Source of the DNA: Haloterrigena alkaliphila
Lineage (GTDB): Archaea > Halobacteriota > Halobacteria > Halobacteriales > Natrialbaceae
Reading direction: 5' to 3'
Length of the DNA stretch: 64,000 bases
Assembly (NCBI RefSeq): GCF_017352155.2
Contig: NZ_CP071462.1
Span: 2,232,001 to 2,296,000, forward strand
In this document: positions 31,088 through 50,936 of the stretch, one piece after another
How positions within the stretch are numbered: the first letter of the stretch is position 1
How the letters are laid out: every line of letters starts with the position of its first letter
The notes under the pieces: model-generated
What the model was told of the DNA's origin: nothing
Seen by the model: the letters and a program-made list of their open reading frames with translations, nothing else
The model's database searches: none
Program-made: the position numbers and the translations under genes

Positions 31088-32887
31088 ATGTCGAATACGG
31101 ATACTCGCGACCCCACATCTCTCAGAACACCGATCGTCGCCGTCCTCGGACACGTCGATCACGGCAAGACCAGTCTCCTGGACAAAATACGCGGCTCCGC
31201 GGTCATCGAGGGCGAGGCGGGCGCGATCACCCAGCACATCGGGGCGACCGCCGTCCCGCTGGACATCATCTCCACGATCGCGGGCGACCTCGTCGACCCC
31301 GACGACTTCGACCTGCCCGGCCTGCTGTTCATCGACACGCCGGGTCACCACTCCTTCACGACGCTTCGCTCACGGGGCGGCGCACTCGCTGACATCGCCA
31401 TCCTCGTCGTCGACGTCAACGACGGTTTCCAGCCCCAGACGCTCGAGGCCCTGGACATCCTCAAGCGCTCGGAAACGCCGTTTATCGTCGCCGCGAACAA
31501 GATCGACACCGTTCCGGGCTGGTCGGTCAACGAGGACTCGCCGATCAACGACACGTACGAGTCCCAGTCCGACCGCGTGCGCCAGCGCTTAGACGAGAGC
31601 CTCTACGAGATCATCGGCAACCTCTCCGACAACGGGTTCTCCGCCGACCTCTACTGGCGCGTCCAGAACTTCCAGCGCAACGTCGGCGTCGTCCCCGTCT
31701 CGGCGATGACCGGCGAGGGGATCCCCGACCTGCTGACCGTGATGATGGGGCTCTCTCAGCGCTACATGAAAGAGGAGATGGAGATCGACGTCACCGGCCC
31801 CGGCGTCGGCACCGTCCTCGAGGTCAAAGAGGAGAAGGGGTTCGGGAAGACGGTCGACATCGTCCTCTACGACGGGACGATCAGGGCCGACGACGAGATC
31901 GTCGTCGGCGGCCAGAACGATCCGATCGTCACCGAGGTGCGCGCGCTGCTCCAGCCCCGGCCGCTCGCGGAGATCCGCACCGAGAGCCGGTTCGAAAAGG
32001 TCGACGAGGTCTCGGCCGCGGCCGGGATCAAGGTCGCCGCGCCGGACCTCGCGGACGCGATGGCCGGCGCGCCGGTCCGCGTCATCCGGGATCGCAACCG
32101 CGACGAGGTGATCGGCGAGGTCGAGGCCGAACTCGCCGACATCGCGGTCGACACCGCCGAGGAGGGCGTCGTCGTCAAGGCCGACACGCTCGGTAGCCTC
32201 GAGGCGATGGCCGACGCGCTCGGCGAGGCGGAGGTGCCGATCGTCCGCGCGGAGGTCGGCGACATCGCGCCGCGGGACGTCTCCGTCGCGTCGACGGCCG
32301 ACGACCCGAAGCAGCAGGTCATCCTCGGCTTCAACGTCGACGCGCTGGACGACGCCGAGTCCCGCGCGGAGGTCGACGACGTGGACCTCTTCACCGACGA
32401 GGTCATCTATCAGCTCGTTGAGGGGTACGAGGAGTACGTCGAGGGGATCGAGCAGGCCCAGCAGGACACCATCCTCGAGAACATCACCCGGCCCGCTCGC
32501 TTCCGCATCCTGCCGGATCACACCTTCCGCCAGAACGATCCGGCGGTCGTCGGCGTCGAGGTGAACGCCGGGACGATCCAGAACAACGCGAACGTCGTGA
32601 AGTTCGACGGCAACGAACCCGAGCGCGTCGGGCAGGTCAAAGGCATTCAGGAACAGGGCGAGGACGTCGACGAGGCCCGCGCGGGCAACCGCGTCTCGGT
32701 GGCCATCGACGGCCCCACCGTCGGCCGCCAGATCGAGGAGGACGACGAACTCTGGACGGAGATTCCCGAGAAGCACGCCAAGATCCTCGAGCAGGAACTG
32801 ACCGGCGAGATTCCCGGCGACGAACTCGAGGCGCTGAACATGTACCTCGACAAGCAGCGCAATCGGGACCCGTTCTGGGGGAAGTGA
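31088..32887 (+). CDS. infB: Translation initiation factor IF-2 (aIF5B)
   Basis: 599-residue GTPase that joins ribosomal subunits during initiation. G1 IVAVLGHVDHGKTSLLDKIR near residue 18; switch II FIDTPGHHSF; G4 AANKID. The domain II/III/IV region extends with TLGSLEAMADALGEAEVPIV and ends GDELEALNMYLDKQRNRDPF. No intein interrupts it, although archaeal infB genes sometimes carry one. It faces away from the nob1 unit. Confidence 0.96.
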   Translation: MSNTDTRDPTSLRTPIVAVLGHVDHGKTSLLDKIRGSAVIEGEAGAITQHIGATAVPLDIISTIAGDLVDPDDFDLPGLLFIDTPGHHSFTTLRSRGGALADIAILVVDVNDGFQPQTLEALDILKRSETPFIVAANKIDTVPGWSVNEDSPINDTYESQSDRVRQRLDESLYEIIGNLSDNGFSADLYWRVQNFQRNVGVVPVSAMTGEGIPDLLTVMMGLSQRYMKEEMEIDVTGPGVGTVLEVKEEKGFGKTVDIVLYDGTIRADDEIVVGGQNDPIVTEVRALLQPRPLAEIRTESRFEKVDEVSAAAGIKVAAPDLADAMAGAPVRVIRDRNRDEVIGEVEAELADIAVDTAEEGVVVKADTLGSLEAMADALGEAEVPIVRAEVGDIAPRDVSVASTADDPKQQVILGFNVDALDDAESRAEVDDVDLFTDEVIYQLVEGYEEYVEGIEQAQQDTILENITRPARFRILPDHTFRQNDPAVVGVEVNAGTIQNNANVVKFDGNEPERVGQVKGIQEQGEDVDEARAGNRVSVAIDGPTVGRQIEEDDELWTEIPEKHAKILEQELTGEIPGDELEALNMYLDKQRNRDPFWGK

Positions 32888-32937
32888 GTCCGTTCAGGAC
32901 CGCCGGCGGCGTCTCGTTCTTGACTACCCACTTGGCG

Positions 32938-33014
32938 TGCGGTGGCGCGCGCTGATCCGCGGTGAGTCACTGACGAACCGCGGTGCAACGCCGTGCGAGG
33001 GATGAGCGAGCGAC
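32938..33014. repeat. Dispersed intergenic repeat, copy A
   Basis: The stretch tgcggtggcgcgcgctgatc near 32938 and gtgcgagggatgagcgagcg at 32993-33012 recur with few changes at 50374-50395 and 50495-50514, in the same order and orientation. Neither copy lies in a gene. The spacing between the two motifs differs (about 40 versus 100 bp), so this may be a decayed mobile repeat. Confidence 0.5.
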
Positions 33015-33161
33015 TTCGGAGCGAGCGAATCGGCTGGGGAGGGCGTGGCTACTCCATGTTGCCACGCTAGCAAAAACGGTCTTCTTCATTCTGCTCTGTC
33101 TCGAGTATCCCTTGGGTTCCCGTCTCCATACGTCGGAGGTAAACGCCGACTGTGATCGCCG

Positions 33162-33539
33162 TCATTGTCGGTCGTTTTCGAGTCGAACCCGCGCCTCACC
33201 ATCCAACTCATCGAGCGGCTCCGTATCAGTAACCCGCCCGACGACGGTCACGGGCGCGGCGGCCCGCGGCTCGCCGTCCTCGCTGGCCGGCGTCGGACCC
33301 CAGAACAGACACAGTTTCCCGCCGGCCGGCCAGTAGGCGATCGCACCCTCGGGCACCGCTTCCCGTGCGTTCTCGAGCGGCGCATCTAGTTCGAGATCGA
33401 AGTAGAGTTCGTCGCCCCAGCGTGTCGCCTCGCCCGCGACGGGTAGCGCCGCCTCGAGGGCGGCCCTCGTCTCGGGTGCGTCGTCGGTCCACTCGGCCTC
33501 GAGGTCGCGGTCGGCGACGGTAACGCGGAGGTCGCTCAT
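33162..33539 (-). CDS. Cyclophilin-like fold protein (TM1367 type)
   Basis: 125 residues. Begins MSDLRVTVADRDLEAEWTDD; then LPVAGEATRWGDELYFDLEL, VPEGAIAYWPAGGKLCLFWG and PVTVVGRVTDTEPLDELDG. The AYWP-G-x-LCLFWGPTP pattern is characteristic of the cyclophilin-like DUF369 family. It lacks the prolyl isomerase residues of true cyclophilins; the role is unknown. The gene is convergent with infB across a repeat-bearing gap. Confidence 0.82.
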   Translation of the reverse strand: MSDLRVTVADRDLEAEWTDDAPETRAALEAALPVAGEATRWGDELYFDLELDAPLENAREAVPEGAIAYWPAGGKLCLFWGPTPASEDGEPRAAAPVTVVGRVTDTEPLDELDGEARVRLENDRQ

Positions 33540-49617: not shown

Positions 49618-50325
49618 ATGTATACGGTCGACCTCCACGCGCACACGAGATTCTTCCACGGTCGCCGGGCCCTCGGCGATCGGTTCGACCCGCTGGGCGC
49701 CCGCCTGCTCGCGCGGGCCGCGGGTCGCCGCGGCCTCGAGGGCGTCGCGACGACCAACCACGACTACTACACGCCGCTGGACCCGCCAGGGGGCGCCCAG
49801 ACGATTCCCGGGATCGAGATCACGACCGATCAGGGCCACGTCCTCGTCGTGGGACCGGACCCACCGTCGGCGACGAAACCCGGCGCGCTCTCGCCGGCGG
49901 AAGCGGTCGCGCTGGCTCACGACCGGGACTGCGCCGCCATCGTCGCCCACCCGTTTCGCAACAGCTCCGTACGGGAACTCGAGGAGGTCCCCTTCGACGC
50001 GATCGAGGTCAACGGCAAACACCCGCGCTCGCGGCCGCTCGTGGAGGAACTGGCCGCGGAACGCGACCTCCCGCTGGTCGGCGGGAGCGACGCCCACTAC
50101 CCCTTCGAGGTGGGGCGGGCGTACACGGTCGTCGAGGCCGACCGATTCACCCCCGAGGCGGTCGTGGACGCGATCCGCGACGGCCGGGTGAGCGCTCGCG
50201 TCGCCGATTCGCCGCTCGATCGGCTCCTGCGCCGGGCGTACCGGGTGATTCACCGGCACAAACACGTGATCGACGCGATCGAACGGCCGACGCCGGGTGT
50301 CGGGACCCCGCCGGGCGAGGACTGA
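49618..50325 (+). CDS. PHP-domain phosphoesterase-like protein
   Basis: 235 residues. Metal ligands are in MYTVDLHAHTRFFHG (H-x-H), TTNHDYYTPLDPPGGAQTIP, GIEITTDQGHVLVVGP, IVAHPFRNSS and GGSDAHYPFEVGRAYTVVEA. This is a PHP trinuclear-metal phosphoesterase of the small archaeal type. The C-terminus is basic (RRAYRVIHRHKHV). The substrate is unknown. It is divergent from the lipid kinase gene. Confidence 0.85.
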   Translation: MYTVDLHAHTRFFHGRRALGDRFDPLGARLLARAAGRRGLEGVATTNHDYYTPLDPPGGAQTIPGIEITTDQGHVLVVGPDPPSATKPGALSPAEAVALAHDRDCAAIVAHPFRNSSVRELEEVPFDAIEVNGKHPRSRPLVEELAAERDLPLVGGSDAHYPFEVGRAYTVVEADRFTPEAVVDAIRDGRVSARVADSPLDRLLRRAYRVIHRHKHVIDAIERPTPGVGTPPGED

Positions 50326-50373
50326 CCGTGCTGTGACGAGGACCGCACGCTGTCAGTGTGACGAGGAGGGGAC

Positions 50374-50516
50374 TGCGGTGGCGCGTGCTGAATCGCGGCG
50401 AGCGAAGCGAGGGCTGAACGAAGTGGCGGACTCGGAAACGCGAGCGGCGACCACCGGGAGCCGTGAGCGATCAGCGAGGCGCGATTCGAAATCACGCGAG
50501 GGATGAGTGAGCGAGA
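50374..50516. repeat. Dispersed intergenic repeat, copy B
   Basis: Shares tgcggtggcgcg(t/c)gctgaatcgcgg-type and gcgagggatgagtgagcgag-type motifs, in this order and orientation, with 32938-33014. Between them is a longer purine-rich spacer. It leads directly into the hairpin array. Confidence 0.5.
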
Positions 50517-50517
50517 G

Positions 50518-50784
50518 CGCGGCGCTACGCGCCGCGAACGCGAACGGCGTAGTCGTTCGAAACGCCGACGGCGTTTCGTGACTGAGCGGAACGGAGTTCC
50601 GCGAGGTCCGCGAAATCTTCGATTTCGCTTGATGACGAGAGAGCGAACCTCTCTCGAACCACCGTTCGCTCCTTGCGTCGCTCACTCATCCACTGGAAGA
50701 CGCTTTACGTCTTCCAAGCTGTCGCTCGCTTCGTCTTCGCGCGGCGTTGCCGCGCGAACGGCTCGCGGGACCGAGGGTCCCGCG
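50518..50784. repeat. Array of nine perfect short hairpins
   Basis: Perfect inverted repeats with short loops follow one another: 50518-50536 (8 bp, loop tac), 50541-50559 (6 bp, loop of 7), 50558-50578 (9 bp, loop gac), 50586-50602 (7 bp, loop gga), 50610-50628 (8 bp, loop ttc), 50636-50656 (8 bp, loop cgaac), 50694-50716 (9 bp, loop cttta), 50736-50758 (10 bp, loop gtt), 50764-50784 (9 bp, loop gag). Stems differ in sequence, so this is not a simple tandem repeat. Loops are of odd length (3, 5 or 7). Confidence 0.85.
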
Positions 50785-50904
50785 CTGCTCACGACGACCT
50801 CGCACGGCGTCATCGGCCGCCCTCGCTATCACTCGGTCGGCCGACAGCGCGCGCCACCGCAAACGCTCCTCCTAGTCCGAAAGCACGCCACGATGACGCA
50901 AAGC

Positions 50905-50934
50905 TTTTGTACATATGAGTACGTCGATGTACAA
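50905..50934 (+). promoter_or_regulatory. trpCBA promoter with two TRP-box-like sites
   Basis: A TATA-like cttttgt near 50904-50910 is followed by a perfect dyad: ttgtacat (50907-50914), 12 bases, atgtacaa (50927-50934). Each arm contains TGTACA, the core of the TRP box bound by the TrpY repressor in Methanothermobacter. The second box covers the expected transcription start, a few bases before the ATG at 50937, so binding should block initiation. Confidence 0.65.
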
Positions 50935-50936
50935 TA

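Follow-up and report, generated by a model that had tools for sequence, protein, structure and literature searches.

The closest described counterparts of the repeats reported here come from Haloquadratum walsbyi, in which PATEs are short elements with near-terminal palindromes that make no target duplication, and in which SMR-A elements of ~110 bp, with inverted ends and likewise without target duplication, are inserted in the near-terminal palindromes of PATEs and of IS605-type elements (Dyall-Smith et al. 2011, PMC3119063). The three SMR-A families HqIRS42, HqIRS43 and HqIRS55 have no sequence similarity to each other, and the mobilisation of SMR-A was called enigmatic, by unknown means (PMC3119063). 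The genome papers on Natrinema J7-2 and Natrialba magadii make no mention of such repeats; of these three papers, that on Haloquadratum alone describes the classes. Among bacterial repeats, the REP/BIME and ERIC families are intergenic, hairpin-forming and high in copy number, and often occur as inverted pairs.

We analysed a 64-kb window (the whole stretch of DNA under study, C1:2232001–2296000 of a Natrialbaceae genome), in which the original prediction had placed nine perfect hairpins at positions 50518–50784, ahead of the trp operon. All nine are present there; hairpins 2 and 3 have two bases in common, so that eight are strictly non-overlapping. We consider it probable that the array was assembled from haloarchaeal repeats that carry no transposase, namely two facing half-units of a ~150-bp element with a nested small repeat and hairpin modules, that it lies at the junction of an inversion, and that its arms are upheld by template switching. 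The small repeat and its four triloop hairpins interrupt one hairpin of the unit; on the other side, additional hairpin modules have been inserted. The features are as follows, with matches given for two covariance models, R1 for the ~150-bp unit and R2 for the small repeat:

50374–50514, plus strand: L-end half of the first unit, with L end TGCGGTGGCGCG, an expanded P1a stem and the GCGAGGGATGAGTGAGCGA foot of P2 (R1 match at 50374–50568, 28.7 bits, and repeat matches)
50518–50536, plus strand: hairpin 1, stem 8, loop 3, CGCGGCGC-tac-GCGCCGCG
50540–50547, plus strand: left host-hairpin arm GCGAACGG, the uninterrupted form being GCGAACGGCGAAGCCGTGAGC in L038
50541–50559: hairpin 2, stem 6, loop 7
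50553–50661, plus strand: small mobile repeat of 109 bp, TCGTTCGA...TCGAACCA, holding hairpins 3–6 (50558–50656), four of triloop type (R2 match at 50553–50662, 122 bits)
50558–50578: hairpin 3, stem 9, loop 3
50586–50602: hairpin 4, stem 7, loop 3
50610–50628: hairpin 5, stem 8, loop 3
50636–50656: hairpin 6, stem 8, loop 5, sequence CGAGAGAGCgaaCCTCTCTCG
50662–50669, plus strand: right host-hairpin arm CCGTTCGC; in uninverted copies the left half continues CCGTGAGC
50694–50716, minus strand: hairpin 7, stem 9, loop 5, the TGGAAGACG module beside GTGGATGAG
50736–50758, minus strand: hairpin 8, stem 10, loop 3, in the P1–P2 linker of the right half-unit
50764–50784, minus strand: hairpin 9, stem 9, loop 3, in the same linker
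50765–50861, minus strand: L-end half of the second unit, facing the first (R1 match, 48.2 bits)
32938–33065, plus strand: complete canonical unit, for comparison (R1, 124.5 bits; one of the 41 model-building sequences, a match by construction)

As the original prediction held, the hairpins are not tandem copies of a single unit, but their stems are not the unrelated one-offs it took them for, being members of dispersed repeat families with ~150 related places in the genome. The stem of hairpin 1 recurs at 12 loci in the 864 kb of genome scanned, and its module also occupies P2 loops in other expanded units (L016, L017, L019, L022, L038 and L011). The module of hairpin 7 sits between P1 and P2 in other expanded units, in variants with a T-A or C-G outer pair and differing loops, and the CGCGGGACC stem from the region of hairpins 8 and 9 (50736–50784) occurs at four loci with four different loops. 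Hairpin 2 straddles the left host arm and the start of the small-repeat insert; with one G-T pair, 50541–50559 can be extended to an 8-bp stem around GTA. In a 95%-identical copy elsewhere in the genome, the counterpart of hairpin 6 is CGAGAGAGCgaaGCTCTCTCG. Over the 864 kb, the excess of perfect hairpins is concentrated in loops of three bases (50 seen vs 12 expected for stems of 9, and 18 vs 5 for stems of 10). The 5- and 7-base loops of the array are decayed triloops in which one pair has been lost or changed. In 267 bp, dinucleotide-preserving shuffles of 50300–50936 (n = 2000) contained 1.4 hairpins on average and 5 at most, compared with the 8 observed in a perfect-stem search that misses the hairpins with tandem G-A mismatches present in the same stretch, and second-order Markov copies of the whole 64-kb window (n = 20) reached maxima of 4–6 hairpins anywhere per copy.

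Within its own genome, the region 50300–50936 has 59 matches, the boundaries of which recur, and there are many in relatives too. Collection of the match ends revealed a unit of ~150 bp, which runs from the L end TGCGGTGGCGCGCGCTG through a variable stem, P1a, and GCGAGGGATGAGCGA... to the P2 hairpin and the R end GAATCGGCTGGGGAGGGCGTGG...GTTGCCACGATAGCAG. The L–R spacing is 88–98 bp in the commonest form and reaches 278 bp in expanded forms, because P1a, the stretch between P1 and P2, or the P2 loop has taken up hairpin modules. The two ends are unrelated in sequence (no inverted terminal repeats), and the ~150 bp have no coding capacity. In the consensus fold of 41 canonical copies, 18 of 32 pairs are doubly changed; 95.8% of stem cells are paired vs 83.1% with shuffled partners, and 160 vs 48 are doubly changed, with none of 500 shuffles reaching either value. 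Four GA dinucleotides that face each other in P2 are conserved in 40–41 of the 41 copies. The non-Watson-Crick cells on the unit strand comprise 166 G·T vs 6 A·C, a ratio somewhat inflated by the preference of the RNAalifold fold for G·U pairs; P1a and P2, which are stems supported by Watson-Crick covariation, show the same bias (63 to 4). This asymmetry, together with the covarying stems, indicates that the structure of the unit matters on one strand, and the simplest reading, drawn from the asymmetry only, would be a constraint as RNA, a constraint as single-stranded DNA recognised by a transposase being less likely. At the site of the complete unit in the window (32886–33180, compared with L189–L193), all five congeners have a small gene, the product of which is probably a membrane protein (MNRIVWLLATSYVALG...), so that unit and gene replace each other; with this gene in place of a clean empty site, the comparison at the 32938 unit does not yield the element ends.

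The small repeat recurs in several genera. Its ends, TCGTTCGA and TCGAACCA, are constant and form imperfect inverted repeats; full copies measure 109–112 bp, and shorter 58-bp forms exist. The linkers are conserved (TGACTGA, GAGGTCC, TTGATGA and AACCA/AACCAC), and the stems differ on both arms. Copies are found in three kinds of setting, namely the TnpB right-end palindrome, the unit hairpin and positions after stop codons. At TnpB right ends (L264, L269, L277, L286 and copies in G018), the filled form GCCTCGGGG-insert-CTTGACCCCGAGGC is seen in L277, downstream of a Cas12f1-like/TnpB gene, and the empty form, an uninterrupted GCCTCGGGGCTTGACCCCGAGGC, in L237, on contig 2 of this genome, where it follows a TnpB gene. 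In the unit hairpin, the filled GCGAACGGCGAAG-insert-CCGTGAGC stands against the empty GCGAACGGCGAAGCCGTGAGC. Comparison of filled with empty forms revealed no target duplication in either host. In the third setting, the small repeat lies ~20 nt after stop codons between TTTTGC...GCAAAA, like a 3'-UTR element, as at L030 10100–10320 (thermosome gene) and at L249, L250, L259, L262, L263 and L266. Over all small-repeat copies, the flanks did not re-form a hairpin on removal of the insert above the null, because many copies sit after stop codons; a clear hairpin is restored only in the TnpB-end and unit-hairpin hosts, and for these two alone is insertion at hairpin tips shown by the filled and empty sequences. 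A C/D-box RNA or TnpB guide RNA was considered for the small repeat and rejected, as the uninterrupted TnpB right end (L237) marks it as an insert. Separately, a short hairpin-array element at L028 9850–10080 lies beside a likely tRNA 3' end, which (TTCAAATCTGCCCCAACCC) is repeated on the far side; it looks like a tRNA-site insertion carrying the same hairpin modules.

The two L ends in the window face each other (50374, plus strand; 50861, minus strand), and both R ends are missing. The left half-unit came with the PHP gene on its left: G002 and G003 both have a homologous L end downstream of that gene. The right half-unit came with trpC, ahead of which a unit stands in the same place and orientation in G001, G002, G004 and G009. 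In five congeners, wherever a single contig carries both the PHP-domain gene and trpC, the two are ~80 kb apart and point in opposite directions. Between the PHP gene and an Lrp-like gene (named from its own sequence only), G002 and G003 have inverted unit pairs, G001 has one unit, and G004 and G005 lack units. Between a conserved minus-strand gene and trpC, G001, G002 and G004 have a unit with the orientation seen in the window, that of G003 is degenerate, and G005 has nothing. In the present genome, the Lrp-like gene now has the conserved minus-strand gene as its neighbour (L012 6652–7602, C1:2.337 Mb), 54 kb away, and an L...R unit separates the two. This second junction is located where it was predicted; the element there is not an exact reciprocal, so that later changes have to be assumed. 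With the flanking genes apart and opposed in the congeners and the second junction found, the array is, on this comparison of gene order, the junction of a ~54-kb inversion specific to this lineage, and comparison with L011 suggests that the joint lies in or near the right host arm (50662–50669).

The position ahead of the trp operon, which the original prediction had noted, is incidental: in several relatives nothing occupies the site, whereas the trp promoter and putative operator are conserved. By this comparison, the array plays no special part in trp regulation. Haloterrigena salina has the closest trpC found (87%). Over the trpC promoter (window 50907–50934) lies a TTGTACA-n14-TGTACAA inverted repeat, nearly the same sequence being present ahead of trpC in the relatives read, and it looks like a candidate trp operator.

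We propose that small palindromic repeats would insert at the tips of existing hairpins without target duplication, giving nested arrays, that a polymerase switching template between arms in replication or repair would make the arms identical again and sometimes flip the loop, and that the same hairpin arms would supply the short inverted homology for the inversion. In yeast, polymerase template switching between inverted-repeat arms results in arm homogenisation and spacer inversion, including gaa/ttc (PMC8604942). The yeast system is alike in its perfect arms of ~10 bp, short spacers and gaa/ttc spacer inversions; it is unlike in that its events occur in coding genes of closely related strains, whereas here they are inferred from diverged archaeal repeat copies. 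In 16 copies of the small repeat, 95.1% of cells are paired vs 84.6% when shuffled, and 69 vs 25 are doubly changed; G·T and A·C mismatches stand at 23:14 (p = 0.19), i.e. without significant strand bias, and GAA and TTC loops are about equal (19 vs 17). Hairpins with the same stem and position had loops that were exact reverse complements in 12 pairs, against a null mean of 3.6; with copies treated as unrelated, a count this high came up in 3 of 2000 simulations. The arm-matched changes, the lack of strand bias and the reverse-complement loops support a palindrome-making mechanism for the array hairpins, the stems of which apparently stay perfect through copying errors in which one arm is used for the repair of its partner. 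Of selection and palindrome making, between which the original prediction had left the choice, template switching is thus favoured for the array hairpins, and the host unit is separately under one-strand structural constraint. We put forward tentatively, as a possibility, that the unit is a structured element of haloarchaea, restricted to the chromosome and so far undescribed (~150 copies per genome, with one-strand covariation, tandem sheared G-A pairs and triloops), the loops of which would be landing sites for a family of hairpin-inserting small repeats, with template switching keeping their arms perfect.

If selection alone were at work, the array would be a functional structured RNA (leader, terminator or sRNA) with stems upheld by compensatory point mutations, which would suit the strong covariation and one-strand bias of the host unit as well as the small-repeat copies that immediately follow the stop codons of conserved genes, among them the thermosome gene. 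We regard this as unlikely, keeping in mind that the array hairpins are not biased to one strand (23:14) and have GAA as well as TTC loops, that the site is empty or differently filled in relatives, and that units occur in every orientation to genes (in tandem gaps 13 in the same and 14 in the opposite direction, with 12 in divergent gaps). A terminator or leader was also rejected for the unit itself, its orientation being random to genes and some units lying between divergent genes.

The placement of the unit bears on a REP/BIME-type role in DNA architecture, in which cruciforms or protein-binding hairpins would organise the chromosome. At E ≤ 0.001, R1 finds 147 copies, all (147/147) on the chromosome and none on the 447 kb of other contigs (P about 1e-7 if copies are proportional to length), in contrast to the TnpB matches, 4 of 11 of which are on contig 2. 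Three congeners have 62–97 copies, and among the matches listed all those of G004 and G005 lie on contig 1. Direct reading covered about a fifth of the genome, most tiles having been picked for holding matches and genes being called by a simple codon-usage method; in the 864 kb sampled, units are intergenic in 62 of 65 cases. They are mildly in excess between convergent genes, and close pairs (e.g. C1:950634/950878 and C1:2897719/2897882) are tail-to-tail in 26 of 29 cases, the other inverted way in 3 of 29 and never in the same orientation. While intergenic, chromosome-only placement, the paired arrangement and the convergent excess all speak for architecture, a one-strand structural constraint is unexpected for a double-stranded binding site, and the unit is patchy beyond the genus, going from none to ~150 copies between genera of one family; we judge this reading to be decidedly improbable. 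Nothing clear emerged from the strand bias of units along the chromosome, considered for a role in replication. That short palindromes clustered here by chance in GC-rich intergenic DNA, their background being raised in a genome of 67% GC, is already refuted by the null models, none of the 2000 shuffles reaching the observed count, and the same modules recur across the genome and in other species, so that the array is non-random as originally claimed.

The composite reading, with repeats that carry no transposase, was also set against possible mobilising partners. Near the 11 TnpB and 2 Y1 genes of this genome there were no unit matches, the two Y1 loci had no unit ends within 1.5 kb, the orphan ends in the 864 kb included no autonomous L...ORF...R element, and no enzyme for the unit or the small repeat was found in this genome. 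A plasmid collection yielded only six records, mostly partial matches, and neither the unit nor the small repeat matched Rfam at the gathering threshold.

Cumulatively, the filled and empty hairpins, the fixed insert ends and the arm and loop signatures make hairpin-tip insertion and palindrome upkeep by template switching directly testable. A hairpin-repeat array is also seen to lie at a rearrangement breakpoint. R1 and R2 could be used to annotate these Rfam-absent repeats across haloarchaea, and in readings of haloarchaeal promoters such hairpin strings should be taken as repeats, not as operon-specific leaders.

Likened by description, the small repeat is similar to SMR-A in its size of ~110 bp, inverted ends, non-coding nature and lack of visible target duplication, and in part also in its insertion in near-terminal palindromes of IS605-type elements, here the TnpB right ends. 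It is unlike SMR-A in coming from another genus, with a probably different sequence, in lying also inside the non-IS605 unit and after stop codons, and in the array of triloop hairpins in its interior, the two arms of which change together. The ~150-bp unit resembles PATEs in being short, non-coding, heterogeneous, hairpin-rich, dispersed and without inverted terminal repeats, but it does not match the ends of TnpB or Y1 elements of this genome, is chromosome-only and has strong one-strand covariation; we do not file it as a PATE, since in this genome it lacks the defining link to IS605-type ends. With REP/BIME and ERIC repeats, the unit has in common that it is intergenic, hairpin-forming, present in many copies and often in inverted pairs, and it differs from them in having no linked RAYT-type partner and in being larger, archaeal and built from tandem G-A hairpins.
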